Positions 11,715 to 43,764 of a stretch of 48,463 nt of DNA are shown here, one piece after another. Each line of letters starts with the position of its first letter. Positions within the stretch are counted from its first letter, which is position 1. A model generated the notes under the pieces. The model was not told the DNA's origin. It worked only from the letters and a program-made list of their open reading frames with translations, and did no database searches. This DNA comes from Chthoniobacterales bacterium (lineage in GTDB: Bacteria; Verrucomicrobiota; Verrucomicrobiia; Chthoniobacterales; JAATET01), in NCBI GenBank assembly GCA_036569045.1, contig DATCRI010000009.1:1-48463 (forward strand), read 5' to 3'. The position numbers and the translations under genes are program-made.

Positions 11715-11896
11715 CGCGGCGGCTGCCCGGTCCTGTCCGGTAGCGAGCTGCCGTCGTGCGATTCGTCGCGGTGAACGAGGCGTGTCTTGACAGTAAAGTA
11801 TGCTCTCCTTTGACGGGCAGGAGAAGTGCCGTTCTAGTGACGGCTGAATTCCCTTCAAATCGGCCACCGACAAAGGTCCGGTCAACTTCCTCCTCC

Positions 11897-14308
11897 ATGT
11901 TTCTTTCCTTTCTTCGTTTCGCCCTTCTCTTGTGCTCAGGATTTCCCCTCGTGATTCGCGCGGCGGACGCTCCGATTTCTCCGCAGGCGCAACCGTTCCC
12001 GCTGGCGGATGTGCGGCTGCTCGATGGGCCGTTCAAGTCGGCGCAGGACGTGAATGCGCGCTATCTGCTCGAGGTGGTGAATGTCGATCGCCTGCTCGCG
12101 GGATTTCGCGCTCAGGCGAAGTTGCCGGCGAAGGCAGAGCGCTACGGCGGCTGGGAGGCGCGGGGCATCAACGGGCATAGCCTCGGGCATTATCTTTCCG
12201 CCGTTTCCGCGCTCTACGCCGCGACCGGCGATCCGAAGGCGTTGAAGAAGATCGAATACGTCGTCGCGGAGCTTGCCGCCTGCCAGCAGGCGAATGGCGA
12301 TGGCTACGTGCTGCCGGTGAACAAGCAGATCTACGAGGATATTCGCCGCGGGCAGATCCAGGCCTCTGGCTTCTCGCTGAATCGGGAATGGGTGCCGAAT
12401 TACAATTTGCACAAGGTCCTCGCGGGACTTCGCGACGCCTATCGCTACGCCGGCAACAAGCAGGCACTCGCCGTCGAGCGCGGCATGGCGGACTATCTCG
12501 CGGGCGTTTACAAGGACCTCACTCCCGCGCAGGCGCAGGAGATTCTTCGGGCCGAATATGGCGGGCTGAACGAGGTCTTCGCCGATCTCAGCGTGGACAC
12601 GGGCGATCCGCGGTATCTCGAGCTGTCGCGCACCATTTTTCACCACGATGCCATTCTCGATCCGCTCGAGCAGGGGCAGGATCGCCTCAACGGGCAGCAC
12701 GGCAACACGCAGATCCCGAAGATCATCGGCATTGCCCGCGATTACGAACTCACCGGCGAGGCGAAATACCGGACGGGAGTGCAGACGTTCTGGGACAGCG
12801 TCGTCAACCTGCGCACCTTTGCGAACGGCGGTCACGGTGAGCACGAGCATTTCTTCCCGCCGGCGCAGTTCCCGCAAAAGCTTGGCAAGCAGGACACGGA
12901 GACCTGCAACACCTACAACATGATCAAGCTCACCGGGCAGATGTTCTCGTGGGATCCGAATGCCGCGGAGATGGACTACGTCGAGCGCGGGATCATCAAT
13001 CATCTCCTCTCGAATATCGGCCGCCAGCCTGGGGAGTTCGGTTACTTCGTGAGCTTCGACCCGATCGCCACGAAGGTCTTCTCGAAGCCCGAGGGCGGCT
13101 GGTGGTGCTGCGTGGGGACGGGCATGGAAAATCCGGCGCGCTACGGCGAGCAGGTGTATTTCCACGATGCCACTTCGCTGTGGGTGAACCTGTTCATCGC
13201 GAGCGAGCTGAGTTGGAAGGAACGCGGAATCCAGCTGCGCCAGGAGACGGCGTTTCCGGATTCCGACACGGTGCGCTTCACGTTCAAGGCCGCCGCTCCG
13301 ACGAAGCTCGCGCTGCGCATCCGCCATCCTTTCTGGTGCACGCGGCCCGAGGTGAAGATCAATGGCGCCCCCGTGGCGGTGAAATCGGAGCCGTCCTCGT
13401 ATTTCACGATCGACCGCGTCTGGAAGACCGGAGATGTCGTCACGTTGCGCCTGCCCATGACGCTGCGCGTCGAGGCGCTGCCGCACTCCGATGGCAAGGT
13501 CGTGTCGGTGCTCTACGGTCCCAATCTTCTTGCGGGCATCGTGCCGGCGAAGCCCGGAGCGCCCGACCCCGCGAAGGAGCGGTGGGATGACCATCTCAAG
13601 GCGCCGGGGCAGGTCCCGGGGACGCCCCCGGTATTCATCGCGGAGAATTACGAGGCGCTGCTTCGGCGTTTTCAGCCGACGGGCCGGGCGTTTGCCGAAT
13701 TCCGCAGCGTCGGCGTCGTATTGCCGCAGGACCTCACGTTTGTGCCGCTCCATCGCGTCTACGAGGAGCACTACGCCGTTTATCTTCCCTTCGCGACGCC
13801 GACCGAATGGAAGCAGCGCGAAGAGGAGATTCGAGCGGCGGAGGCGGCAAAAGCCCGCCTGGACGCGGCGACGCTGGACGCCGTGCAGCCGGGATTTCAG
13901 CAGTCCGAGGTCGAGCACAACTTCCAGTCCGAGAACAGCGAGACCGGCTCCTTTCGCGATCGCAAATGGCGCGACGCGCGGACCGGTGGCTGGTTCTCCT
14001 ACGATCTTGCCGTCGATCCGAACAAGCCCATGGCACTTATCGTGACCTACTTCGGCGGAGATCGCGGCCGCACCTTCGACGTTCTTGTCGACGGGAAAAA
14101 GGTCGCCACCCAGAAGCTCGACGGCCGGCAGAATGGCAAGTTCCTCAATGTGGTTTATGCGCTTCCGGCCGATTCGACCCGGCGCAAGACCAAGGTCACC
14201 GTGCGGCTGCAGGGCGTTGGAAACTCGCTGGCTGGCGGCGCTTATGATCTGCGAGTGCTGCAGGCCGATGCGGCCAAAGCCCTCGTCCCCGCCACCGAAA
14301 ATCCCTGA
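11897..14308 (+). CDS. Secreted GH127-family beta-L-arabinofuranosidase-like protein
   Basis: The 803-residue protein has a signal peptide (MFLSFLRFALLLCSGFPLVIRAAD) and the DUF1680/GH127 (alpha/alpha)6 domain. The zinc-cysteine site known from HypBA1 is conserved: Glu335 and Cys337 in ETCNTYN, and adjacent Cys404-Cys405 in WWCCVG, one being the expected nucleophile. The last 150 or so residues add a beta domain (YFGGDRGRTFDVLVDGKK) like the DUF6805-type C terminus. It likely removes beta-L-arabinofuranose from plant glycans in the periplasm or outside. The GH43 gene start overlaps its end. Confidence 0.92.
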   Translation: MFLSFLRFALLLCSGFPLVIRAADAPISPQAQPFPLADVRLLDGPFKSAQDVNARYLLEVVNVDRLLAGFRAQAKLPAKAERYGGWEARGINGHSLGHYLSAVSALYAATGDPKALKKIEYVVAELAACQQANGDGYVLPVNKQIYEDIRRGQIQASGFSLNREWVPNYNLHKVLAGLRDAYRYAGNKQALAVERGMADYLAGVYKDLTPAQAQEILRAEYGGLNEVFADLSVDTGDPRYLELSRTIFHHDAILDPLEQGQDRLNGQHGNTQIPKIIGIARDYELTGEAKYRTGVQTFWDSVVNLRTFANGGHGEHEHFFPPAQFPQKLGKQDTETCNTYNMIKLTGQMFSWDPNAAEMDYVERGIINHLLSNIGRQPGEFGYFVSFDPIATKVFSKPEGGWWCCVGTGMENPARYGEQVYFHDATSLWVNLFIASELSWKERGIQLRQETAFPDSDTVRFTFKAAAPTKLALRIRHPFWCTRPEVKINGAPVAVKSEPSSYFTIDRVWKTGDVVTLRLPMTLRVEALPHSDGKVVSVLYGPNLLAGIVPAKPGAPDPAKERWDDHLKAPGQVPGTPPVFIAENYEALLRRFQPTGRAFAEFRSVGVVLPQDLTFVPLHRVYEEHYAVYLPFATPTEWKQREEEIRAAEAAKARLDAATLDAVQPGFQQSEVEHNFQSENSETGSFRDRKWRDARTGGWFSYDLAVDPNKPMALIVTYFGGDRGRTFDVLVDGKKVATQKLDGRQNGKFLNVVYALPADSTRRKTKVTVRLQGVGNSLAGGAYDLRVLQADAAKALVPATENP

Positions 14309-15347
14309 TTTTTCTCCCATCAAGATCCTTCGCACTCTTCTCATCACTGCGACCGCGGCCTTCTGCATGGCCGCCGAGCCGAGCCCGGCCGCCGCGCCGC
14401 CGAAGCCGATCCTCGGCGGATTCACGGCCGATCCCGCCATCCGCGTCTTCGGCGACACCTATTACGTGTATCCGACGACGGATAAGCCGAACTGGGAGAC
14501 GACGGAGTTCGTCGTCTGGTCCTCGAAGAACCTTGTCGATTGGAAACGCGAGGGCGTGGCCCTCGATGTCACGAAGGATCTGAAGTGGGCCGACCTCAAG
14601 GCGTGGGCGCCGGACTGCATCGAGCGGAATGGCACCTATTATTTCTACTTCTGCGCCCGCGGAAAAATCGGGGTGGCGACGGCGAAGGCGCCGGTGGGAC
14701 CGTTCAGGGACGCCCTCGACCGCCCTCTCCTTGAACGCATGGGCAAGACGGACAAGCGGATCACGTCGAACACGATCGATCCCTATCCCTTCATCGATGA
14801 TGACGGTCAGGCCTATCTCTATTGGGGGAACGGCAACGGCATCGTGAATGTCGTGAAGCTGAAGCCCGACATGATCACGATCGACGGCGATCCGATCGAA
14901 TTTCGTATCGAGGGTGGCGATGCGACCTTCCGGGAGGGCGTCGTGGTTTTCAAGCAAGGCGGAAAGTATTATTTCATGTGGTCGGTGGACGACGCGCGCA
15001 GCGACAACTATCGCATCGGCTACGGCACGGCCGACTGTCCCCTTGGGCCGGTGACGATTGCCGCAGCGCCGATCATTCTTCAAAAGAATGGCCTCGCCAA
15101 AGGCACCGGCCATCACAGTGTGGTGAACATTCCCGGGACCGATCGCTGGTATGCGGTTTACCACCGCCACGCGATTCCCAACGGCAGCGGCTATCAACGC
15201 GAGACCTGCCTCGCGCGCATGGAATTCGAGCCCGACGGCACCATCAAACCGATGGACCCCATGGTGACGCCGTTCAAGCCCGGCGATGTCGGCGAACCCC
15301 TCGTCAACGGCAAGGGGGCACCCGACGGTCTGCCGAAGAGCGAATAG
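14268..15347 (+). CDS. Secreted GH43-family glycosidase
   Basis: The 359-residue five-bladed beta-propeller protein has the expected carboxylates: base Asp in GGFTADPAIRVFGDTYY, modulating Asp in DPYPFIDDDGQAYLYWG, and acid Glu in FREGVVVFK. GH43 enzymes release arabinose or xylose (or act on galactans). The start is uncertain: the ATG at 14268 overlaps the GH127 gene by 41 bases and gives a 20-residue leader before the hydrophobic signal segment KILRTLLITATAAFCMA. An ATC at 14319 would be a better-placed but non-classical start. No closer ATG exists. Confidence 0.88.
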   Translation: MRPKPSSPPPKIPDFSPIKILRTLLITATAAFCMAAEPSPAAAPPKPILGGFTADPAIRVFGDTYYVYPTTDKPNWETTEFVVWSSKNLVDWKREGVALDVTKDLKWADLKAWAPDCIERNGTYYFYFCARGKIGVATAKAPVGPFRDALDRPLLERMGKTDKRITSNTIDPYPFIDDDGQAYLYWGNGNGIVNVVKLKPDMITIDGDPIEFRIEGGDATFREGVVVFKQGGKYYFMWSVDDARSDNYRIGYGTADCPLGPVTIAAAPIILQKNGLAKGTGHHSVVNIPGTDRWYAVYHRHAIPNGSGYQRETCLARMEFEPDGTIKPMDPMVTPFKPGDVGEPLVNGKGAPDGLPKSE

Positions 15348-15437
15348 CCGGGAACATCCTTCGCCCGGGCGACATCCGCGCGCCGTCCGCCCTTGTCGAA
15401 GCGGAGCTCCTTCTCCTAGGCTGCAGAATTCCCTCCC

Positions 15438-17810
15438 ATGAAATCCTGGCTTGCTTCCGCATTGCTCCTGTTCTCCCTGGCTCCGGCTCTTCCTCTCGCT
15501 GCCGCATCGGATGGTTCCGCGACCTCCGCCCCGAAGCATACGTTCGCCATTGGCGAAAAGGACTTCCTGCTCGATGGGAAGCCTCTGCAGATCCGCTGCG
15601 GCGAGATTCATTTCGCCCGCGTGCCTCGGGAATACTGGCGCAATCGGCTCGAAACCCTGAAGGCGATGGGCCTGAATGCGGTCTGCGCCTACCTCTTCTG
15701 GAATTTCCACGAGTTCGAGAAAGGGAAATTCGATTGGAGCGAGCAGCGGGACGTCGCCGAGTTTTGCCGGATTGCGCAGGAGGTTGGCTTGTGGGTCGTC
15801 CTGCGGCCCGGTCCATACGCCTGCGCCGAGTGGGACGGGGGTGGGTTGCCGTGGTGGCTGCTGAAGAATCCCGACATCAGGATGCGCTCGCAGGATCCGG
15901 AGTTTCTCTCCGCAGCCACGAAATGGCTGAAGGAAGTCGGGCGCGTGCTCGGGCCGCTGCAAATCACCCACGGCGGCCCGATCCTCATGGTGCAGGCGGA
16001 AAACGAATACGGCCTCTACGGCGCCGACGTGGAATACATGGGGAAGATTCGGCAGGCGCTCCTCGACGCCGGGTTCGACGTGCCGCTGTTCGCCTGCGAT
16101 CCCCGCAGCGCGCTGGCGAAGGGATATCGAGAGGACTTGTTTCAGGTCGTAAATCTTGGCCGCGATCCGAAATCGGCCTTCGCCAGGCTGCGGGAAGTGC
16201 AGCCGAAAGGGCCGTTGATGAGCGGGGAGTTCTATCCCGGGTGGTTCGACACGTGGGGCGCGCGCCATCACCTCGGGGACACGAAGCGCTATCTCGGCGA
16301 CCTCGAGACCATGCTCTCGATGGGCGCCTCTTTCAGTATCTACATGGCCCACGGCGGAACGTCGTTTGGCATGTGGGCGGGGGCGAATCGGCCGTTCAAG
16401 CCGGATACGAGCAGCTACGACTACGATGCCCCCGTCTCCGAGGCCGGCTGGGTTGGCGAAAAGTTCGAACTCACCCGCGACCTGATCAGGAAGTATCTCG
16501 CGAAGGGCGAGACGCTGCCCGAACCGCCGGCGCGCCTGCCGGTGGCGACCGTGCCGGCGTTCCCCTTCACGGAAATCGCTCCGGTGTTTGCGAATCTCCC
16601 GCAGGCCGTGAAGGACAAGGAACCTCGCAACATGGAGGATTACGATCAGGGCCACGGCTGCACGGTCTATCGCACGACCCTGCCGGCGGGCCCGGCGGCC
16701 ACTCTCAGCGTCGGCCGGGCGCATGATTTCGGCTGGGTCTTCATCGACGGCAAGGAGGTCGGCATGATGGATCGCCGCAATCGCACCTACGCCGTGGATC
16801 TCCCCGAACGCGCGAAGCCCGTGCAGCTCGATATCCTCGTCGAGGCGATGGGCCACGTTAATTTCGGCACCGAGATTCACGACCGCAAAGGCCTCGCGGG
16901 CCCCGTCGTTCTGCGCGCGAAGGACGGCGCGGAAACCCCTGTCGAAGGCCCGTGGGACGTTTTCCCACTGCGTCTCGATGCGCCGGAACTGGCCGGCTTG
17001 AAGTGGGAAAAAACCACGCCCGGAGCGAAGGCCGCCGGCCCGGCTTTCTGGCGCGGCTCCTTCGAGATCGAGAAGCCCGCGGATACCTTTCTGGACCTGC
17101 GAAAATGGGGCAAGGGCGTCGTGTGGGTGAACGGACACTGCCTTGCCCGCTACTGGAACATCGGCCCGACGCAGACCGCGTATCTGCCCGGAGTCTGGCT
17201 GAAGCCCGGCCGCAACGAAGTCGTCATTCTCGATCTCGTCGGTCCGGAAGAACCGGTGGCTGCGGGCCTGAACGAGCCGATCCTCGACGAACTTCGCCTC
17301 GATCTCGACAAGAGCCGTCCGCTCTCGGCCTACGGAAAATTGAAGATTTCCGGCGTGGCGCCGCTGGTCTCCGGATCGTTCGCGCCCGGTGAAGAGCCGC
17401 AGGAAGTGAAATTCGAGAAGCCGGTGAATGCCCGTCAGGTTTGTTTCGAGGCCGTGGACTCGCATGATGGCAGGCCCGTCGCGGCTGTCGCCGAAATCGA
17501 TTTCCTCGACGCCGGGGGGCGATCGATCCCGCACACGGACTGGTCCATCGCGTATGCTGACAGCGAGGAGGGCGTGAGGGACGACGGGGCCGCATCGAAT
17601 GCCATCGATGGCCAGGTTGCGAATTACTGGATCACGGAGTTCAGCAAATCCCAACCGGCTTATCCGCACCAGCTCGTCATCGATTTTGGAAACCCGACGG
17701 AGATCGCGGGCTTCCGCTACGTGCCGAAGGCGGGCGAAAAAGAACCCGGCCGCATCAAGAATTATCGCATCTTTGTCGGTGACGCGCTCGCCGAGATGCC
17801 GCAGAAGTGA
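15438..17810 (+). CDS. Secreted GH35 beta-galactosidase with C-terminal sugar-binding domain
   Basis: The 790-residue protein starts with a signal peptide (MKSWLASALLLFSLAPALPLAAA). The GH35 barrel carries RCGEIHFARVPREYW, LFWNFHE, LRPGPYACAEWDGGGLPWWL, acid/base Glu190 in AENEYG, and nucleophile Glu264 in SGEFYPGWFD. Jelly-roll domains follow (WVNGHCLARYWNIGP), and the last 120 residues look like an F5/8 type C (CBM32) domain (ASNAIDGQVANYWITEF, HQLVIDFGNP). It would cut terminal beta-galactose from galactans or arabinogalactan. It completes the GH127-GH43-GH35 set. Confidence 0.94.
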   Translation: MKSWLASALLLFSLAPALPLAAASDGSATSAPKHTFAIGEKDFLLDGKPLQIRCGEIHFARVPREYWRNRLETLKAMGLNAVCAYLFWNFHEFEKGKFDWSEQRDVAEFCRIAQEVGLWVVLRPGPYACAEWDGGGLPWWLLKNPDIRMRSQDPEFLSAATKWLKEVGRVLGPLQITHGGPILMVQAENEYGLYGADVEYMGKIRQALLDAGFDVPLFACDPRSALAKGYREDLFQVVNLGRDPKSAFARLREVQPKGPLMSGEFYPGWFDTWGARHHLGDTKRYLGDLETMLSMGASFSIYMAHGGTSFGMWAGANRPFKPDTSSYDYDAPVSEAGWVGEKFELTRDLIRKYLAKGETLPEPPARLPVATVPAFPFTEIAPVFANLPQAVKDKEPRNMEDYDQGHGCTVYRTTLPAGPAATLSVGRAHDFGWVFIDGKEVGMMDRRNRTYAVDLPERAKPVQLDILVEAMGHVNFGTEIHDRKGLAGPVVLRAKDGAETPVEGPWDVFPLRLDAPELAGLKWEKTTPGAKAAGPAFWRGSFEIEKPADTFLDLRKWGKGVVWVNGHCLARYWNIGPTQTAYLPGVWLKPGRNEVVILDLVGPEEPVAAGLNEPILDELRLDLDKSRPLSAYGKLKISGVAPLVSGSFAPGEEPQEVKFEKPVNARQVCFEAVDSHDGRPVAAVAEIDFLDAGGRSIPHTDWSIAYADSEEGVRDDGAASNAIDGQVANYWITEFSKSQPAYPHQLVIDFGNPTEIAGFRYVPKAGEKEPGRIKNYRIFVGDALAEMPQK

Positions 17811-31753: not shown

Positions 31754-32812
31754 ATGAAGACAGCGCTTATCACCGGCATTACGGGCCAGGACGGCTCCTA
31801 TCTCACGGAGCAGCTGCTTGCCAAGGGCTACACCGTTCACGGCATGATTCGCCGCTCGAGCAGCTTCAATACGGGACGGATCGATCACCTTTACAGCGAT
31901 CCGGAGATCATCGATAAGCGACTTTTCCTCCACTACGGCGATCTCACCGATTCCAGCAATCTCAACCGCATGCTCGAGAAGGTCGGGCCGGATGAAATCT
32001 ACAACCTCGGCGCCCAGAGCCACGTGAAGGTCTCGTTCGATGTCCCGGAATACACCGGCGAGGTCGACGCGATGGGCACGCTGCGCTTCCTCGACGCGAT
32101 CAAGGAAGTCGGTCTGAAGGACAAGACCCGCTTCTACCAGGCGTCGACGAGCGAACTTTACGGCCTCGTGCAGGAGGTTCCCCAGACCGAGAAGACGCCT
32201 TTCTATCCGCGTTCGCCCTACGCCGTCGCGAAGCTCTACGGCTTCTGGATCATCGTGAACTACCGCGAGGCCTACGGCATCCATGCCTCGAACGGCATCC
32301 TTTTCAACCACGAGTCTCCCCGCCGTGGGGAGACCTTTGTCACGCGCAAGATCACGCGGGCCGCGGGCCGCATCAGGGAAGGTCTCGAGGATTGCCTCGT
32401 CATGGGCAACATCGATTCCAAGCGCGACTGGGGTTATGCGCCGGAATACACCGACGCGATGTGGCGCATCCTTCAGCAGGACACGCCGGACGACTACGTC
32501 TGCGCGACGAACGAGACGCACACCGTCCGCGAGTTCATCGACCTCACCTTCAGGCAGCTCGACATGGAGTTGGAATTCAAGGGTGAGGGCGTGAACGAAG
32601 TCGGTATCGAGAAGAAGACCGGCAAGGTTCGCCTGAAGATCGATCCCCGCTATTTCCGTCCGACCGAGGTCGAACTCCTCATCGGCGACTACACGAAATC
32701 GAAGCTCAAGTTCGGCTGGGAGCCGACCACCCGTTTCGAGGAGCTCGTCCGCATCATGACCGACGCGGATTGGAAGCTCGCCCAGCGCGAAAAACTCGGC
32801 CTTGGGCAGTAA
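31754..32812 (+). CDS. gmd: GDP-mannose 4,6-dehydratase
   Basis: The 352-residue extended SDR converts GDP-D-mannose to GDP-4-keto-6-deoxy-D-mannose. It has [17 protein letters not shown] at the start, [25 protein letters not shown], YxxxK as [29 protein letters not shown] and [14 protein letters not shown]. Residues match the family throughout. No GDP-fucose synthase or Rmd-type reductase is next to it, so the final sugar (for example GDP-fucose, GDP-rhamnose or perosamine) is open. Confidence 0.96.
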
Positions 32813-32844: not shown

Positions 32845-33771
32845 ATGCGCATTCTTGTCACCGGCGGGGCAGGGTTTCTCGGTTCCCATTTGTGCGATCG
32901 GCTCGTCGAGCGCGGAGATGAGGTGCTCTGCCTCGATAATTTCTTCACGGGGCGGAAGGCGAATATCGCCCACCTGCTCGGGAATCCCCGCTTCGAGCTC
33001 ATTCGTCACGACGTCATCGATCCTTTCAAGTTCGAGGTCGACCAGATTTACAATCTCGCCTGCCCGGCCTCGCCGCCGCATTACCAATACAACCCCATCA
33101 AGACGACGAAGACGTCGGTGATGGGCGCGATCAACTGCCTCGGCCTCGCCAAGCGCGTGAAGGCGCGCGTTTTCCAGGCCTCCACGTCGGAGGTTTACGG
33201 CGATCCCGCGATTCACCCGCAGGAAGAGAGCTACTGGGGCAACGTGAACCCGATTGGTCGCCGGTCCTGCTATGACGAGGGCAAGCGCGTCGCCGAGACG
33301 CTCTTCTTCGACTACCATCGCGAGAACAAGGTCGATATCCGCATCGTTCGCATTTTCAACACCTACGGGCCCCGCATGCACCCGAACGACGGCCGCGTCG
33401 TCTCGAACTTCATCGTGCAGGCGCTCAAGGGCGAAGACCTCACCGTTTACGGCGATGGCTCGCAAACGCGCTCGTTCTGTTACGTCGACGATCTCATCGA
33501 GGGCTTCATCCGCCTGATGAACCAGGACGAAACCGTGGGCCCGGTGAACATTGGCAACCCCGGGGAATTCACGATGCTCCAGCTTGCGGAACTCGTGCTC
33601 GAAAAGGTTGGCGGCCCGTCGAAGATCGTGCATCGTGACCTTCCGGCAGACGATCCGAAGCAGCGGCGACCCGACATCACCCTCGCCAGGAAGCATCTCG
33701 ATTGGGAGCCGACCGTTCCCCTCGAGGAGGGCATCGAACGCACGATCGCCTACTTCAAAACGGCCATCTGA
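32845..33771 (+). CDS. UDP-glucuronate decarboxylase (UDP-xylose synthase)
   Basis: The 308-residue SDR decarboxylates UDP-glucuronate to UDP-xylose. Landmarks are [80 protein letters not shown] (YxxxK) and [19 protein letters not shown]. These closely follow plant and animal UXS sequences. It directly precedes the UDP-glucose dehydrogenase gene that supplies its substrate. ATG at 32845 gives the family N terminus. Confidence 0.95.
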
Positions 33772-33807: not shown

Positions 33808-35202
33808 ATGAAAATTACCTGTCTTGGAGCTGGTTACGTGGGTGGTCCCACGATGGCGATGATCGCCGCCAAATGCCCCGATATCGAAGTCACCGTCGTC
33901 GATCCCAACGCCGCCCGCATCGCCGCATGGAATTCCGACACCCTGCCCGTTTACGAACCGGGGCTCGATGAGGTCGTCAAGGAAGCCCGCGGTCGCAACC
34001 TCTTCTTCACCACCGAGGTCGAGGCCGCCATTCGCGCCGCGGAGATCATTTTTGTGAGTGTCGGCACTCCGACGAAGACCTACGGCATCGGCGCCGGTCG
34101 CGCGGCCGACCTCAAGTATATCGAGAGCGCCGCTCGTATGATCGCCGAAGTCGCCGAGGGGCCGAAGATCATCGTCGAGAAGAGCACCATCCCGGTGAAG
34201 ACCGCCGAGGCCATGCTCACGATCCTCCGCGCGAATTCCAAGAAGGGCACCTTCCAGGTCCTCTCGAATCCCGAGTTCCTCGCCGAAGGCACGGCGATCG
34301 CCGACCTGCAGAAGCCCGATCGCATCCTCATCGGCGGCGAGACCACCCCCGAAGGCGCCGCCGCCGTCGAAAAGCTCGTCTCCGTCTATGCCCGCTGGGT
34401 GCCGCGCGAGCGCATTCTCACGACGAACCTCTGGTCGTCCGAGCTTTCCAAGCTCGTCGCGAATGCCTTCCTCGCGCAGCGCATCTCGTCGATCAATTCC
34501 ATCTCGGCCCTCTGCGAAGCCACCGGCGCCGACGTCGACGAAGTCGCTCATGCCATCGGCACCGACTCGCGCATTGGCCCGAAGTTCCTCAAGGCCTCCG
34601 TCGGCTTCGGCGGGTCCTGCTTCCAGAAGGACATCCTCAACCTCGTCTATCTCTGCGGCCACTTCGGCCTGCCCCAGGTCGCCGCGTATTGGGAGAGTGT
34701 CGTGCAGATGAATGACTGGCAGAAGCGCCGCTTCGCGCACCTGATCGTCAGCACGCTCTTCAACACCGTCTCCGGCAAGCGCATCGCCGTGCTCGGCTTC
34801 GCGTTCAAGAAGGACACCAACGACACCCGCGAATCCGCCGCGATTTCCGTCGTGCAGGACCTCCTCGAGGAAGGCGCGACCGTCGTCGTGTATGACCCCA
34901 AGGTCTCGGCCGAGGAAATCCGCCGCGACGTGCTCGGGGCCAGGGAAAATTCGCGGCTCGTCATCGCCGAGAGCGCCGAGGAAGCCGCCAGGGGCGCCCA
35001 CGCCGTGGCGATCGTCACCGAATGGGACGCCTTCAAGGAGCTGGACTGGGCGGCAATCTACGCCGGCATGCCGAAGCCTGCGTTCGTGTTCGACGGCCGC
35101 AACATCCTGCCGGCCACGAAGCTGCGCGAGATCGGTTTCCGCGTCTTCGCGATCGGCAAGCCCGTCCAGCGTCGCGAGAGCGACCTCATCGGCGCGAACT
35201 GA
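33808..35202 (+). CDS. ugd: UDP-glucose 6-dehydrogenase, eukaryote-like type
   Basis: The 464-residue enzyme oxidises UDP-glucose to UDP-glucuronate. It begins [19 protein letters not shown] and has [27 protein letters not shown], the catalytic [18 protein letters not shown] (Cys271), [17 protein letters not shown] and [11 protein letters not shown]. The wording and the length match plant and animal UGDH better than the shorter bacterial Ugd/TuaD type, as I recall those families. With the upstream UXS it forms a UDP-xylose route. Confidence 0.95.
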
Positions 35203-35296: not shown

Positions 35297-36199
35297 TTGA
35301 ACTCGTCCCCCGTTTCCGCTTCCGCCGATTCGCGCTCGGGCGTGGCCAGCATGGCTGTCTCGCCATGGATCCTGGTCGCGCTGCTTGCCTTCGTCTGGCT
35401 GCCGGCGATTCGGCAGTGGAGTTACGACTGGAGCACGAATCCTCAGTATTACTATGGCTGGGCCGTGCCCTTGCTTGCCGCCTACCTTGCCTACGAGAGG
35501 TGGGAGACACGCCCGGCGGCGCGCCCGCTTGTCCGTTTCTGGGTGTTCCTTCCGCTCGTTGGGCTTGCGGCCCTGCAATTGCCCGTGAGGTGGTTCGGCG
35601 AGGCGAATTCCGATTGGTGGCCCGTGTGGTGGGCCTACGGAACGATCTGCGTCGGGGTCACGCTCGGCCTGCTCGCCCTGTTCGGCGGCGCGGGCTGGGT
35701 CAGGCATTTTTTGTATCCGTGCCTGTTCATGTTCACGGCGATTCCCTGGCCGACCTATTTCGAAATTTCCGTGGTGCAGCGGTTGATGGGAATCAATGCC
35801 GCGATCTCCGCCGAGATCGTTTCTGCCCTGGGAGCGCCGGCGATCGCGGTCGGTAATGTCATCGAGGTTTCCAGCGGAGTGCTCGGAGTGAACGAAGCCT
35901 GCAGCGGAATCCGCTCCCTGCAATCCACGCTCATGGCGGCATTCTTCCTCGCCGGTCTCTACCAGTTGCGGAGCTTCGGCATTGCGCTCCTTGCCGGGGT
36001 GGGGGTGTTGATCGCGTTCACCTGCAACATCATTCGCACGACTTTCCTCACTTACGAAGGCGCCACCAAGGGCGTGGAGGCCACCGAGAAGTGGCACGAC
36101 ACGGCCGGCTTCGTCATTCTCGGCGTGGTCCTCGTTTGTCTCTTCTTCATCAGCCAGTTTCTCGACCGGCGCACCGCTGCTCGGAATGTCCACCGCTGA
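35297..36199 (+). CDS. Exosortase/archaeosortase family protein
   Basis: The 300-residue multi-span membrane protein has the exosortase catalytic triad: Cys202 in VNEACSGIRSLQS, Arg247 in CNIIRTTFL and His267 in EKWHDTAGF. Exosortases process proteins bearing C-terminal PEP-CTERM-like signals and are typically encoded with exopolysaccharide genes, as here. No protein in the window shows an obvious C-terminal sorting signal, so the substrates are elsewhere. The next gene (EpsI) overlaps its end by 14 bases. Confidence 0.93.
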   Translation: MNSSPVSASADSRSGVASMAVSPWILVALLAFVWLPAIRQWSYDWSTNPQYYYGWAVPLLAAYLAYERWETRPAARPLVRFWVFLPLVGLAALQLPVRWFGEANSDWWPVWWAYGTICVGVTLGLLALFGGAGWVRHFLYPCLFMFTAIPWPTYFEISVVQRLMGINAAISAEIVSALGAPAIAVGNVIEVSSGVLGVNEACSGIRSLQSTLMAAFFLAGLYQLRSFGIALLAGVGVLIAFTCNIIRTTFLTYEGATKGVEATEKWHDTAGFVILGVVLVCLFFISQFLDRRTAARNVHR

Positions 36200-36917
36200 A
36201 TCCTCTCGCCGGCAACCGGCTTCCGACGCACAAGGCCGGGTGAAGTTCTCCCGCATCGGCTGGGGAATCGCCATCGCGGTGGCCCTGTGGTTCGCGCTCA
36301 GCGAAGGGGCGACGGAAATCTGGTATCGGCTGCACGAAATGCGCGCCACGAAGAATCCGGCATGGTCGTTTTTGTGGCCCGACTCGCCGGAGGCGCAGGC
36401 CGAGGGAATCTCCGTCGCGAATTTTCAGGAATTTCCGGTCGCTGGTCAGGAGGTGCTCCATTTCGACCGCGCCCGGGCCGCGACCTGGCAGGCGGGTGAC
36501 ATTCGCTGGATTGTCACCGTGCTTGAATGGAATCCCGGCACGAAGGCCAGCGCGATGGATTCGCGCCACAATCCCATGATCTGTCTGCCTTCCGTGGGGT
36601 TCCAACTCGTCAGGGAACTGGGCTCCTCGAAGATTTCTTCACCGGTCGGCGACATTTCCTTCCGCGGTTACGAATTCCGGCGCGGCGGAGGGACGCCGTA
36701 TGTCTTCTCCGCCGTCATTCGTCCATTGGAGATGCCGGAGGGAACCCTGCGCTCGGGTCGCTTGGAGCGTCGACTCACTCAGCTCGAGAAAGCCGTGAAT
36801 GGCAATCGCCAGAGCCCGGAGCGCATTCTTCTCATCGCTGTCGAGGGGCCGAAGACCCCGGAGGCGGCGGAGAAGGCCCTTCGCGAGACCTTCCCGGGCT
36901 GGGTCAAGGTCAGCTAA
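36186..36917 (+). CDS. Exosortase-associated EpsI family protein
   Basis: The 243-residue protein has one N-terminal membrane span (IGWGIAIAVALWFAL, about 24-38) and the EpsI/DUF3485 hallmark RHNPMICLPSVGF (about 127-139, Cys133). In many loci this domain is fused to the exosortase; here it is separate but overlaps it by 14 bases. The role is assumed to be in exosortase-linked polysaccharide or protein export. Confidence 0.88.
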   Translation: MSTAESSRRQPASDAQGRVKFSRIGWGIAIAVALWFALSEGATEIWYRLHEMRATKNPAWSFLWPDSPEAQAEGISVANFQEFPVAGQEVLHFDRARAATWQAGDIRWIVTVLEWNPGTKASAMDSRHNPMICLPSVGFQLVRELGSSKISSPVGDISFRGYEFRRGGGTPYVFSAVIRPLEMPEGTLRSGRLERRLTQLEKAVNGNRQSPERILLIAVEGPKTPEAAEKALRETFPGWVKVS

Positions 36918-37027: not shown

Positions 37028-37942
37028 ATGATCTATCTGCTCGGAGGCTCCGGCTATGTTGGCCTGGCCTATCAGGAACTGCTCACCCGCAAGGGCATCG
37101 CCTTTCGAAATCTCCGCCGCGCGGAAGTCGATTATTCCGACACGGCCACGCTCACCGCGACGCTGGAACGGGATCGCCCGGATTTCGTGATCAATGCCGC
37201 CGGCTACACCGGCAAGCCCAATGTCGACGCCTGCGAGCTGCATCGCACCGATTGTCTCTTCGGGAATGCCGTCCTTCCGGGGCGGATCGCCGATGCCTGC
37301 GAGGCGGCGGGCATTCCGTGGGGGCATGTCTCGTCGGGTTGCATCTACACCGGCGCCCGGCCGGATGGGGGCGATTTCACCGAGGAGGATGCGCCGAATT
37401 TCAGTTTCCGGCAGAATAATTGCAGCTTCTACAGCGGCACGAAAGCCCTCGGGGAAGAAGTCCTTGCTGGCCGGCCGAATGTTTACATCTGGCGCCTGCG
37501 CATCCCGTTCGATCACGTCGACAGCCCGCGCAATTACCTCACGAAGGTCATGCGCTACCCCCGCCTCCTTGCCGCGGAGAACTCCATCTCGCAGCTCGAG
37601 GAATTCGTCGCCGCGACCTTCGCCTGCTGGGAAAAACAGGTGCCCTTCGGCACCTACAACGTCACGAACCCCGGCCGCATCACCACTCACCGTGTGGTCG
37701 AGCTCATCGAGGAAAGCGGCGTCTGCCGGAAGGACTGGGATTTCTTCGAAACCGAGGAGGAGTTCATGCGCCTTGCCGCGAAGACCCCGCGCTCGAACTG
37801 CGTGATGACCTCCGCCAGGCTCGCCTCGGTCGGCATCACCATGACGCCCGTGGAGGACGCCGTCCGCGCAGCCCTCGCCAACTGGAAAAGTGCGCCGTCC
37901 ACAGGGATTGAAGGGGTAAAAGGGATCCGGGGAGAAGAATAG
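37028..37942 (+). CDS. NRS/ER-like dTDP-rhamnose 3,5-epimerase/4-reductase
   Basis: The 304-residue SDR starts [12 protein letters not shown] and contains [34 protein letters not shown], YxxxK as [13 protein letters not shown] (Tyr135, Lys139), [19 protein letters not shown] and [16 protein letters not shown]. These follow the plant NRS/ER (UER1) and RHM C-terminal domain, which both epimerise and reduce the 4-keto-6-deoxy intermediate, more closely than bacterial RfbD. No rfbC is nearby, consistent with a dual function. The last 14 residues or so ([13 protein letters not shown]) are encoded by an AGGGAT repeat arm. Confidence 0.85.
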
Positions 37943-38001: not shown

Positions 38002-39069
38002 ATGAACTTGCTCGTCACCGGCGGCTGCGGATTCATCGGCAGCAATTTCATTCGCCAGCGCCTCACGGAAGCGAATTCGCCGCTGCAGAAGCTGGTCAAT
38101 CTCGACAAGCTCACCTACGCGGGAAACCCCGCCAATCTCGCCGACCTTGCCGACGACCCGCGCTACGTCTTCGTCCACGGCGACATCGGCGATCCCGCGC
38201 TGGTGGATGCCCTTCTGCGCGACCACGCGATCGACGCGATCGTCAATTTCGCCGCGGAGTCCCACGTCGACCGCTCCATCGACTCGCCCGAGCCCTTCAT
38301 CCAGACGAACGTCGTCGGCACGCTGCGCCTGCTGGAGTCCGCCCGGAAATATTGGCAGGGCCTCGACGGCGCGCGAAAGGCGGGCTTTCGCTTCCTGCAC
38401 GTCTCGACCGACGAGGTCTACGGCACGCTCGCGCCCGAAGATCCCGCCTTCACCGAGGAGACGCCCTTCGCGCCGAACAGTCCCTACGCCGCGTCGAAGG
38501 CCTCCAGCGACCATCTCGTCCGCGCCAGCCATCACACCTACGGCCTGCCGACGCTCACGACGAACTGTTCGAACAACTACGGCCCGTTCCACTTCCCCGA
38601 GAAGCTCATCCCGCTCATCATCCTCAACGCGCTGGACGGCAAGCCGCTCCCCATCTACGGCGACGGCCGGCAGATCCGCGACTGGCTTTACGTCGAGGAT
38701 CACGCCCGCGGCATCTGGTCCGTTCTCCACGGCGGCCGGCTCGGCGAGACCTACAATATCGGCGGCATCAACGAGCAGGCAAACGTCGACGTCGTCCGCA
38801 TTGTCTGCGCCCTGCTCGACCGCAAGCAACCCCGCGCCGACGGCCGCTCCTACGCCGAGCAGATCACCTTCGTCGCCGACCGCCCCGGCCACGACCGCCG
38901 CTACGCGATCGACTGCACGAAGATCACCCGTGAACTCGGCTGGCAGCCACAGGAATCCTTCGAGACCGGCATCGAGAGAACCGTCGACTGGTATCTGGCA
39001 AACCGCCCCTGGGCCGACGACATCACCGCCACCCGCTACGCCCGTCAGCGCCTCGGCGCCAGCCGCTGA
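38002..39069 (+). CDS. rfbB: dTDP-glucose 4,6-dehydratase
   Basis: The 355-residue SDR makes dTDP-4-keto-6-deoxyglucose. It has [52 protein letters not shown], YxxxK as [32 protein letters not shown] and [17 protein letters not shown]. Full length. It lies 15 bases after repeat copy 1 and ends shortly before the four-helix-bundle gene. Confidence 0.97.
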
Positions 39070-39079
39070 CGAGAGAGAG

Positions 39080-39504
39080 GAGTCGAGGGACGAGAGCCAT
39101 GACTTTTCGCTTTGAGAAATTGGAAGTGTGGCAGCGCGCACGCGAGTTCAACCGCGCCGCCTATGACGCCGTTCGCCATTTTCCGAAAAGTGAAGAATAC
39201 GCACTGTCCGCTCAACTGCGGAGAGCGGCGATCTCGGTCTCTTCCAATATCGCGGAAGGCTCTGGCCGAAATTCCGACGCGGATTTCGCGCACTTTTTGG
39301 AAATTGCCTACGGCTCTTTGATGGAAGTCGTGTCCCAGATCTACTTGGCCTTCGATCAATCTTACATGAACGAATCCGAGCTGAATGCTCTTTTGCAAAA
39401 GGCGGACGTCATCGCTGGCCAGCTTTCCGCACTGGCTCGATCGCTGGGACGCGAACCCCGCCGCACCAAATAGCCCTCGACGCCCGACTCTCGCCCCTCG
39501 ACTC
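39080..39504. mobile_element. Candidate non-autonomous element: four-helix-bundle gene between inverted repeats
   Basis: gagtcgagggacgagag (39080-39096) and ctctcgcccctcgactc (39488-39504) are inverted and match at 16 of 17 bases. They tightly bracket a single gene for a 23S-IVS-type four-helix-bundle protein. The unit splits rfbB from rfbA. No transposase is present and no target duplication was confirmed, so mobility is an inference from structure. Confidence 0.45.
39099..39473 (+). CDS. Four-helix-bundle protein (23S rRNA intervening-sequence protein family)
   Basis: The 124-residue protein matches the TIGR02436 family: [66 protein letters not shown] and a C-terminal helix [18 protein letters not shown]. 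Homologs are encoded in intervening sequences of 23S rRNA genes and are also found scattered in genomes; the biochemical role is not known. It is inserted in the rhamnose operon with inverted repeats immediately on both sides. Confidence 0.92.
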
Positions 39505-39544
39505 ATCCCCAATGCCCTCGCCCCTCGACTCCCGCCCCTCGACT
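39492..39544. repeat. Three direct copies of cgcccctcgact
   Basis: The 12-base unit occurs at 39492-39503, 39519-39530 and 39533-39544. The first is part of the right inverted repeat of the four-helix-bundle unit. The other two are inside the first codons of rfbA. The spacing (27 and 14 bases) is irregular. Confidence 0.75.
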
Positions 39545-40438
39545 TCCGCGCCGCCGGCGCGGCGCGGAATCATCCTCGCGGGCGGCTCCGGCACGCGGCT
39601 GTATCCGCTCACCATCGCGGTGAGCAAGCAGCTCATGCCGGTTTACGACAAGCCGATGATCTACTACCCGCTGTCGGTCCTCATGCTGGCCGGCATTCGG
39701 GAGATCCTCATCATCTCCACGCCGGCCGACCTGCCGCTTTTCGAGCGCCTGCTCAGCGACGGATCCCAGTTCGGCCTCTCGCTCACCTACGCCGAGCAGC
39801 CTCGCCCCGAGGGCCTTGCCCAGGCCTTTCACATCGGCGCGGACTTCCTGGCCGACGCGCCCTCCGCCCTTGTGCTGGGCGATAACATCTTCTACGGCCA
39901 CGATTTCGTCGGCGCCCTCGAAGCGGCCGACGCGCTGGATTCGGGCGCCACCGTTTTCGGCTACCACGTCGCCGAGCCTTCCGCCTACGGCGTCGTCGAG
40001 TTTGCGTCCGACGGTCGCGTGATTTCCCTCGAGGAAAAACCGGCGAAGCCAAAGTCGAACTACGCCATTCCCGGGCTCTACTTCTACGACAGCTCCGTCG
40101 TCGAGAAGGCGCGCAGTTTGAAGCCCTCGGCCCGCGGCGAACTCGAGATCACCGACCTCAACCGCCTCTACCTCGACGAAGGCACCCTGCGGGTGGAACT
40201 GCTCGGCCGCGGCACCGCCTGGCTCGACACCGGCACGCATGACTCCCTGCTCGACGCCGCGGATTTCGTCAGCGTGATCGAGCGCCGCCAGGGCCTCAAG
40301 ATCGCCTGCCTCGAGGAAATCGCGTTCCGTTCCGGCTGGATCGACGCTGCCGGCCTCCAGCGTCAGATCGACCGCCTCGGTAAATCGAGCTATGGCGCCT
40401 ACCTTCGTCGGGTCTCCACGAGCGGCGGAGACCGTTGA
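39512..40438 (+). CDS. rfbA: Glucose-1-phosphate thymidylyltransferase
   Basis: The 308-residue nucleotidyltransferase makes dTDP-glucose, the first step to dTDP-rhamnose. It has [17 protein letters not shown] (from residue 18), [60 protein letters not shown] and [11 protein letters not shown]. The first 17 or so residues ([15 protein letters not shown]) are extra and are encoded by the cgcccctcgact repeats. No other start codon lies nearer to the conserved domain, so the repeat seems to supply the translation start. Confidence 0.94.
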
Positions 40439-43081: not shown

Positions 43082-43348
43082 ATGCTTTCCAGCATCTCTC
43101 AAACGAAGAATAATTTGAGCGCCCTGCTGGAGAAGGTTCAGGCAGGGGAAACGTTGATCATTCTCGATCGGAATCGCCCGGTGGCTCGGGTCGAACGTGT
43201 CGCGATCGGGGAGGACCTCACTCACCTGACCCCCCCGAGAGAAGCAAAAGCCATCACTGCGGTTCTGGATTTGCCAATCGGCGGAACCCCGGGAGTGCCT
43301 GGAGGAGCCGTCGACGCGCTCCTCGATGAACGATCCGGGTCGCGATGA
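43082..43348 (+). CDS. Phd/YefM-type antitoxin
   Basis: The 88-residue protein has the Phd/YefM fold: MLSSISQTKNNLSALLEKVQAGETLIILDRNRPVARVERV. The first helix-strand unit binds DNA, and the C-terminal tail (DALLDERSGSR) would wrap the toxin. The stop overlaps the PIN toxin start (ATGA at 43345-43348). It likely represses its own promoter through the palindrome directly upstream. Confidence 0.85.
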   Translation: MLSSISQTKNNLSALLEKVQAGETLIILDRNRPVARVERVAIGEDLTHLTPPREAKAITAVLDLPIGGTPGVPGGAVDALLDERSGSR

Positions 43349-43764
43349 AATTCTGGGATTCCTCCGCAGTCCTGCCGCTCCTCTTGTGGGAACAGGATAC
43401 TGTAATCCGGGAAGGCCAATTGCGGGAGGATGCGGATTTCGTCGTCTGGTGGGGCACCCGGATCGAGTGTCACTCCGCGCTTCGCCGCCGGCTTCGGGAA
43501 GGAGGCATCGGTTCGAAGGATGGTGATCGAGCCCTCGCCCGTCTCACGGCCCTGGCCGGAAGCTGGATCGAGGTTCCTCCTTCGGAAGCCGTGAGACTCC
43601 GCGCGGAACGACTGCTGGTCGGGCACAACCTTCGCGCCGCCGACGCCCTGCAGCTCGGCGCCGCATTGAACGCCTTCAAGGAACAAACGGCGAATCAGCA
43701 TTTCCTCACTGCCGACGCCCGTCTCGCTTCCGCCGCCGCCGCGGAAGGATTTCAGATTCGGTGA
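43345..43764 (+). CDS. PIN-domain ribonuclease toxin (VapC family)
   Basis: The 139-residue protein keeps all four acidic active-site residues: Asp5 in KFWDSSA, Glu41 in TRIECHSAL, Asp100 in LRAADALQLGAAL and Asp124 in FLTADARL. Metal-dependent cleavage of tRNA or rRNA is the known activity of the family. It is intact, unlike the VapC copy at 40956, and paired with the preceding antitoxin. Confidence 0.9.
   Translation: MKFWDSSAVLPLLLWEQDTVIREGQLREDADFVVWWGTRIECHSALRRRLREGGIGSKDGDRALARLTALAGSWIEVPPSEAVRLRAERLLVGHNLRAADALQLGAALNAFKEQTANQHFLTADARLASAAAAEGFQIR

Follow-up and report, generated by a model that had tools for sequence, protein, structure and literature searches.

How would L-rhamnose synthesis be completed at a bacterial locus that encodes rfbA and rfbB, when the enzyme beside them resembles a plant protein? 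The window, by which we mean the whole stretch of DNA analysed (48,463 nucleotides of a Chthoniobacterales bacterium, contig DATCRI010000009.1), contains such a locus and belongs to a 3.4 Mb assembly of 91 contigs that is 98% complete. A sequence-only reading had placed there a plant-like NRS/ER enzyme "in place of rfbC and rfbD", in a three-gene dTDP-rhamnose route possibly also active on UDP sugars. The RmlA and RmlB steps of such a route are like those of the canonical RmlABCD pathway, but the canonical pathway has a cupin RmlC, which was not found here, and epimerisation and reduction are assigned to one SDR. We propose that this SDR, P0001 (304 amino acids), is very probably a bifunctional 3,5-epimerase/4-reductase that completes a route made of RfbA, RfbB and P0001.

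Gene layout of the locus

The open reading frame of P0001 and the motifs quoted for it (26 protein letters and NVTNPG) are present, and the genes reported as rfbA and rfbB both score above the NCBI cut-offs, 3' of P0001 (Table 1). Only 59 bases separate P0001 from rfbB, and rfbA lies further 3' on the same strand. The earlier description of P0001 as the only other gene of the cluster is inexact, because a 124-amino-acid ORF, probably unrelated to the pathway, is inserted between rfbB and rfbA. With GDP-mannose dehydratase-like, UXS-like, UDP-glucose dehydrogenase and exosortase genes upstream, the region looks like an exopolysaccharide locus; the name UXS is our own reading, and a Pfam search gave no match for the ORF that follows the exosortase gene. 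Elsewhere, the window holds a possible antitoxin/PIN-domain toxin pair (43082-43764; PIN match slightly below the Pfam cut-off) and a likely polysaccharide degradation locus with GH127, GH43 and GH35 glycosidases side by side (11756-17810).

Table 1. Features of the polysaccharide locus, in window coordinates
Feature	Position	Strand	Basis
GDP-mannose 4,6-dehydratase-like gene	31754..32812	+	PF16363, 505 bits
UDP-xylose-synthase-like SDR	32845..33771	+	PF16363/PF01370
UDP-glucose dehydrogenase family	33808..35202	+	PF03721, PF00984, PF03720
Exosortase (EpsH family)	35297..36199	+	PF09721, 3e-44
EpsI-like ORF, by position only, directly 3' of exosortase	36186..36917	+	
NRS/ER-type 3,5-epimerase/4-reductase (P0001), predicted	37028..37942	+	sequence match, tree, C105, Y135, K139, K173
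rfbB, dTDP-glucose 4,6-dehydratase	38002..39069	+	TIGR01181, 495 bits (cut-off 365)
23S-rRNA-intervening-sequence (four-helix) family ORF	39099..39473	+	PF05635, 4.8e-37
rfbA, glucose-1-phosphate thymidylyltransferase	39512..40438	+	TIGR01207, 484 bits (cut-off 361)

P0001 is of the NRS/ER type

Among sequences with solved structures, the best match of P0001 was Arabidopsis NRS/ER (4qqr; 125.5 bits, 2.4e-35), followed by the mimivirus UDP-L-rhamnose synthase (7jid; 72 bits), whereas RmlD structures reached at most 34 bits. The family profile likewise gave 171 bits on the NRS/ER side versus 64 bits on the RmlD side. No NCBIfam model names P0001 above its cut-off: the RmlD model TIGR01214 gave 73.3 bits (cut-off 224) and the GDP-fucose synthase (Fcl) model NF047922 gave 20.4 bits (cut-off 500). 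In a 40-row maximum-likelihood tree with ten RmlDs and only two eukaryotic/viral references, the bacterial, plant and viral NRS/ER rows were separated from the RmlDs by a branch with 100/100 support, which is also where long branches join. Constraining P0001 to group with RmlD was rejected (p-AU 0.005). The AlphaFold model of P0001 (pLDDT 91) had NRS/ER and the mimivirus synthase as its top Foldseek matches; in VIA-align 7jid led (Z 35.8) and the RmlDs (Z 30.9) were level with 4qqr (Z 30.6), so the fold alone does not discriminate. We conclude that P0001 is an NRS/ER-type protein and lies outside RmlD, as the sequence-only reading had supposed.

The closest sequence family is thus plant NRS/ER (UER1) together with the C-terminal domain of RHM, which share with P0001 the clade, the SDR Tyr/Lys and the epimerase Cys and Lys. 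They differ in that identity is about 30%, that P0001 is bacterial and accompanied by dTDP-type rfbB and rfbA, and that the plant enzymes favour UDP substrates. The mimivirus protein L780 (7jid), the top structural match, also has the Cys and Lys, but is only 24% identical and is reported as a UDP-sugar enzyme.

Active-site residues and proposed mechanism

The candidate catalytic residues are conserved almost throughout the family. C105 is kept in all 214 relatives (135/135 bacterial, 79/79 viral) and has no equivalent in RmlD-type proteins (0/26); its counterparts in the alignment are the Cys of NRS/ER, that of the mimivirus enzyme and that of E. coli GDP-fucose synthase (Fcl). K173 occurs in 134 of the 135 bacterial and in all 79 viral relatives and may fill the role of the acid, although the alignment does not place it in the same column as the His of GDP-fucose synthase. 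The YxxxK motif of the SDRs is present (Y135, K139); its Tyr and Lys, for reduction at C4, are invariant in the family, and the reduction triad and cofactor motif as a whole are nearly so. The roles proposed for Cys and Lys in NRS/ER itself follow largely by analogy with GDP-fucose synthase. In the human form of the latter enzyme, the equivalent Cys acts as general base when C3 and C5 are epimerised, and the H186K variant, in which the acid His is replaced by Lys, keeps activity (PMC12362431).

In the proposed route, RfbA and RfbB would make dTDP-4-keto-6-deoxy-D-glucose, the substrate of P0001. P0001 would epimerise C3 and C5, with C105 as the base and K173 as the likely acid, and then reduce C4 with NAD(P)H via S103/Y135/K139. 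The product would be dTDP-L-rhamnose, with one gene doing the work of RfbC and RfbD. Both activities, the stereochemistry and the nucleotide are what we infer from these observations.

RfbC was not found in the genome, and an RmlD is encoded elsewhere

The absence of a cupin RfbC, previously reported for the window, extends to the genome: in the 98%-complete assembly neither PF00908 nor TIGR01221 matched, the latter even at E<=10, and controls did match. By contrast, the part of the claim concerning rfbD is not supported for this genome. Contig C8 carries a gene (L014:10669-11559) for an RmlD that scores 239 bits against the cut-off of 224; it lies apart from the cassette, flanked by a TauE-like transporter gene and dnaX, and P0001 therefore does not substitute for a missing rfbD here. 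From the canonical set, this genome encodes RmlA, RmlB and RmlD.

RmlD proteins above the cut-off were found in all four genomes searched in the genus. One of them, G009, keeps RmlD, and neither RmlA nor RfbC was detected in it. In G029, which has no cassette, an rfbB separates rmlD from the gene that comes next; in the cassette carriers G000 and G020, rmlD stands without rfbB at that site. The orphan rmlD persists across the genus, its rfbB partner missing in two cassette carriers, which would fit decay of an older rfbB-rmlD pair once the cassette had arrived. In the 40-row tree, P0001 and its congener are nested within Opitutaceae sequences, a position consistent with horizontal transfer, and the cassette probably came to the genus from an Opitutaceae-like source.

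The cassette recurs in Verrucomicrobiota

Close relatives of P0001 were found in 18/197 genomes of the order. In families f1, f4 and f6, rfbB follows the gene in every locus, and rfbA follows in turn wherever the contig reaches (in G038 and for one G045 copy it stops too early for rfbA to be seen). The f7 copies (43-49% identity) are unlinked to rfbBA and lie near glycosyltransferase-like genes, and f7 genomes such as G066 also have the canonical operon. A scan of GTDB genomes returned 499 relatives, the best 80 nearly all from Opitutales. Among these 80, 62 Opitutales-type loci were testable because 3 kb or more of sequence lies downstream: rfbB and rfbA both occur in 59 of them, and rfbB in the remaining three. 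In a diverse set of 39 Verrucomicrobiia loci, both genes occur in 22 and one in six, often in the order rfbA-NRS/ER-rfbB. The three-gene unit suggested from the window alone is therefore conserved in most close relatives. Neither rfbC nor rfbD was found beside the NRS/ER gene in any of the 181 loci inspected (these 62 and 39 from Verrucomicrobiota, and 80 from IMG/VR).

We surveyed 384 genomes of the class with completeness of at least 90%. The full-length gene is present in 81; RmlA accompanies it in 79 of them, and RfbC is missing from 65. In family f23, which we take to be Opitutaceae, 31/32 lack RfbC, and several of these are one-contig genomes. A deficit of RfbC among carriers shows across the class (Fisher p=4.7e-5, uncorrected for phylogeny). 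Yet 116/294 RmlA-positive genomes have neither the NRS/ER gene nor RfbC, and a missing RfbC alone does not prove replacement. Finished, one-contig genomes such as G218, G286, G363, G240 and G244 carry the NRS/ER gene and RmlA, without RfbC and without an RmlD above the cut-off; several cassette-bearing Opitutaceae genomes belong to this set.

Strict mutual exclusion with RfbC does not hold in the order, where 8/18 carriers have RfbC, versus 81/197 genomes overall. The RfbC of G003 was discarded as a counter-example: it lies with CDP-glucose genes (TIGR02622 and TIGR02623 above cut-off). The RfbC of the cassette-less congener G029 is also among CDP-glucose genes (TIGR02622 above cut-off). The RfbC of carrier G045 is above the RmlC cut-off and adjoins a stretch with an ambiguous frame, and no CDP genes were seen near that of carrier G030. 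RfbC-like genes in the CDP-glucose clusters L068 and L072 score 143 and 156 bits (RmlC cut-off 156), and labelling them rhamnose epimerase may be misleading.

Relatives in uncultured viruses

At least 180 relatives are present in IMG/VR, and identity is 40-52% for the 80 best. Among these 80 loci, 37 carry both rfbA and rfbB no more than about 4 kb away, whereas RfbC or RfbD was seen near the NRS/ER gene in none. A terminase was found in 14/40 records tested, and at least those 14 look like tailed phages. The IMG/VR contigs L258-L337 include rfbA-NRS/ER-rfbB clusters, some with glycosyltransferase-like genes. Cultured phage records and plasmids gave no match at the limits used.

Alternative readings

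The RmlD on contig C8 raises the question of whether two proteins share the job, P0001 performing only the 3,5-epimerisation and RmlD the 4-reduction. Such a split is possible because RmlD is kept here and in G041 and G047, which retain RfbB-RmlD and are also without RfbC; it persists, moreover, throughout the genus genomes searched. Against it stand the nearly invariant reduction motifs of the P0001 family, the finished genomes (G218, G286, G363, G240 and G244) that have the gene and RmlA but no RmlD above the cut-off, and G009, where RmlD is retained though RmlA and RfbC were not detected. We regard a division of labour as very improbable.

The nature of the product can also be questioned. 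Many dTDP sugars are built from what RmlA and RmlB supply, and the sequence does not reveal the stereochemistry at C4, so that P0001 might form dTDP-6-deoxy-L-talose, by reduction on the opposite face of C4, or a sugar reduced at C4 without epimerisation. Its residues, the epimerase Cys included, and its clade are nevertheless those of rhamnose-forming enzymes, making another dTDP sugar a very improbable product too. Least probable of the three is that P0001 works mainly on UDP sugars and yields UDP-L-rhamnose in the plant fashion. Plant and viral relatives do favour UDP substrates (PMC6556577), but in bacteria as well as on viral contigs the gene usually sits beside dTDP-type RmlA and RmlB, and the UDP activity once suggested for this locus finds no support in that context. 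The bifunctional, dTDP-linked P0001 remains our preferred reading.

Relation to known systems and significance

One protein performing both steps on a TDP sugar is known from Prymnesium as an RmlC-RmlD fusion (PMC6556577); that fusion joins cupin and RmlD domains, whereas P0001 is a single SDR domain. Closer to our case, the main text of Yin 2011 describes only four bacterial NRS/ER homologues, all verrucomicrobial, and postulates, as donor for eukaryotic RHM, an operon in which epimerase and reductase were merged (PMC3220709). These homologues, picked up with a plant NRS/ER model and from the same phylum as P0001, very likely represent its family; their operon context, rfbC status and activity are not given in that main text (PMC3220709). 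A review from 2022 continues to attribute the steps to separate enzymes in bacteria (PMC8987622). In the open-access literature we found neither an assayed bacterial enzyme of the NRS/ER kind nor an account of the operon, of the loss of rfbC or of the clusters in phages. The enzyme family is thus already known, and the three-gene bacterial route would be a novel variation on an established pathway. We also considered that the bacterial NRS/ER-rfbB-rfbA cassette is the donor operon of the type postulated by Yin et al., exchanged among Verrucomicrobiota and phages and only later acquired by eukaryotes, which we think unlikely.

Our results point to a plant-like enzyme and a shortened L-rhamnose route in many verrucomicrobial relatives and some uncultured phages, as predicted from their genes. 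If true, a bacterial one-protein version in a dTDP operon would change the current picture. The annotation of P0001 would be corrected, and a dTDP-linked enzyme would become a comparison partner for the UDP-using plant ones. The origin of the first 3,5-epimerase/4-reductase gene, left open by Yin et al., would then become testable.
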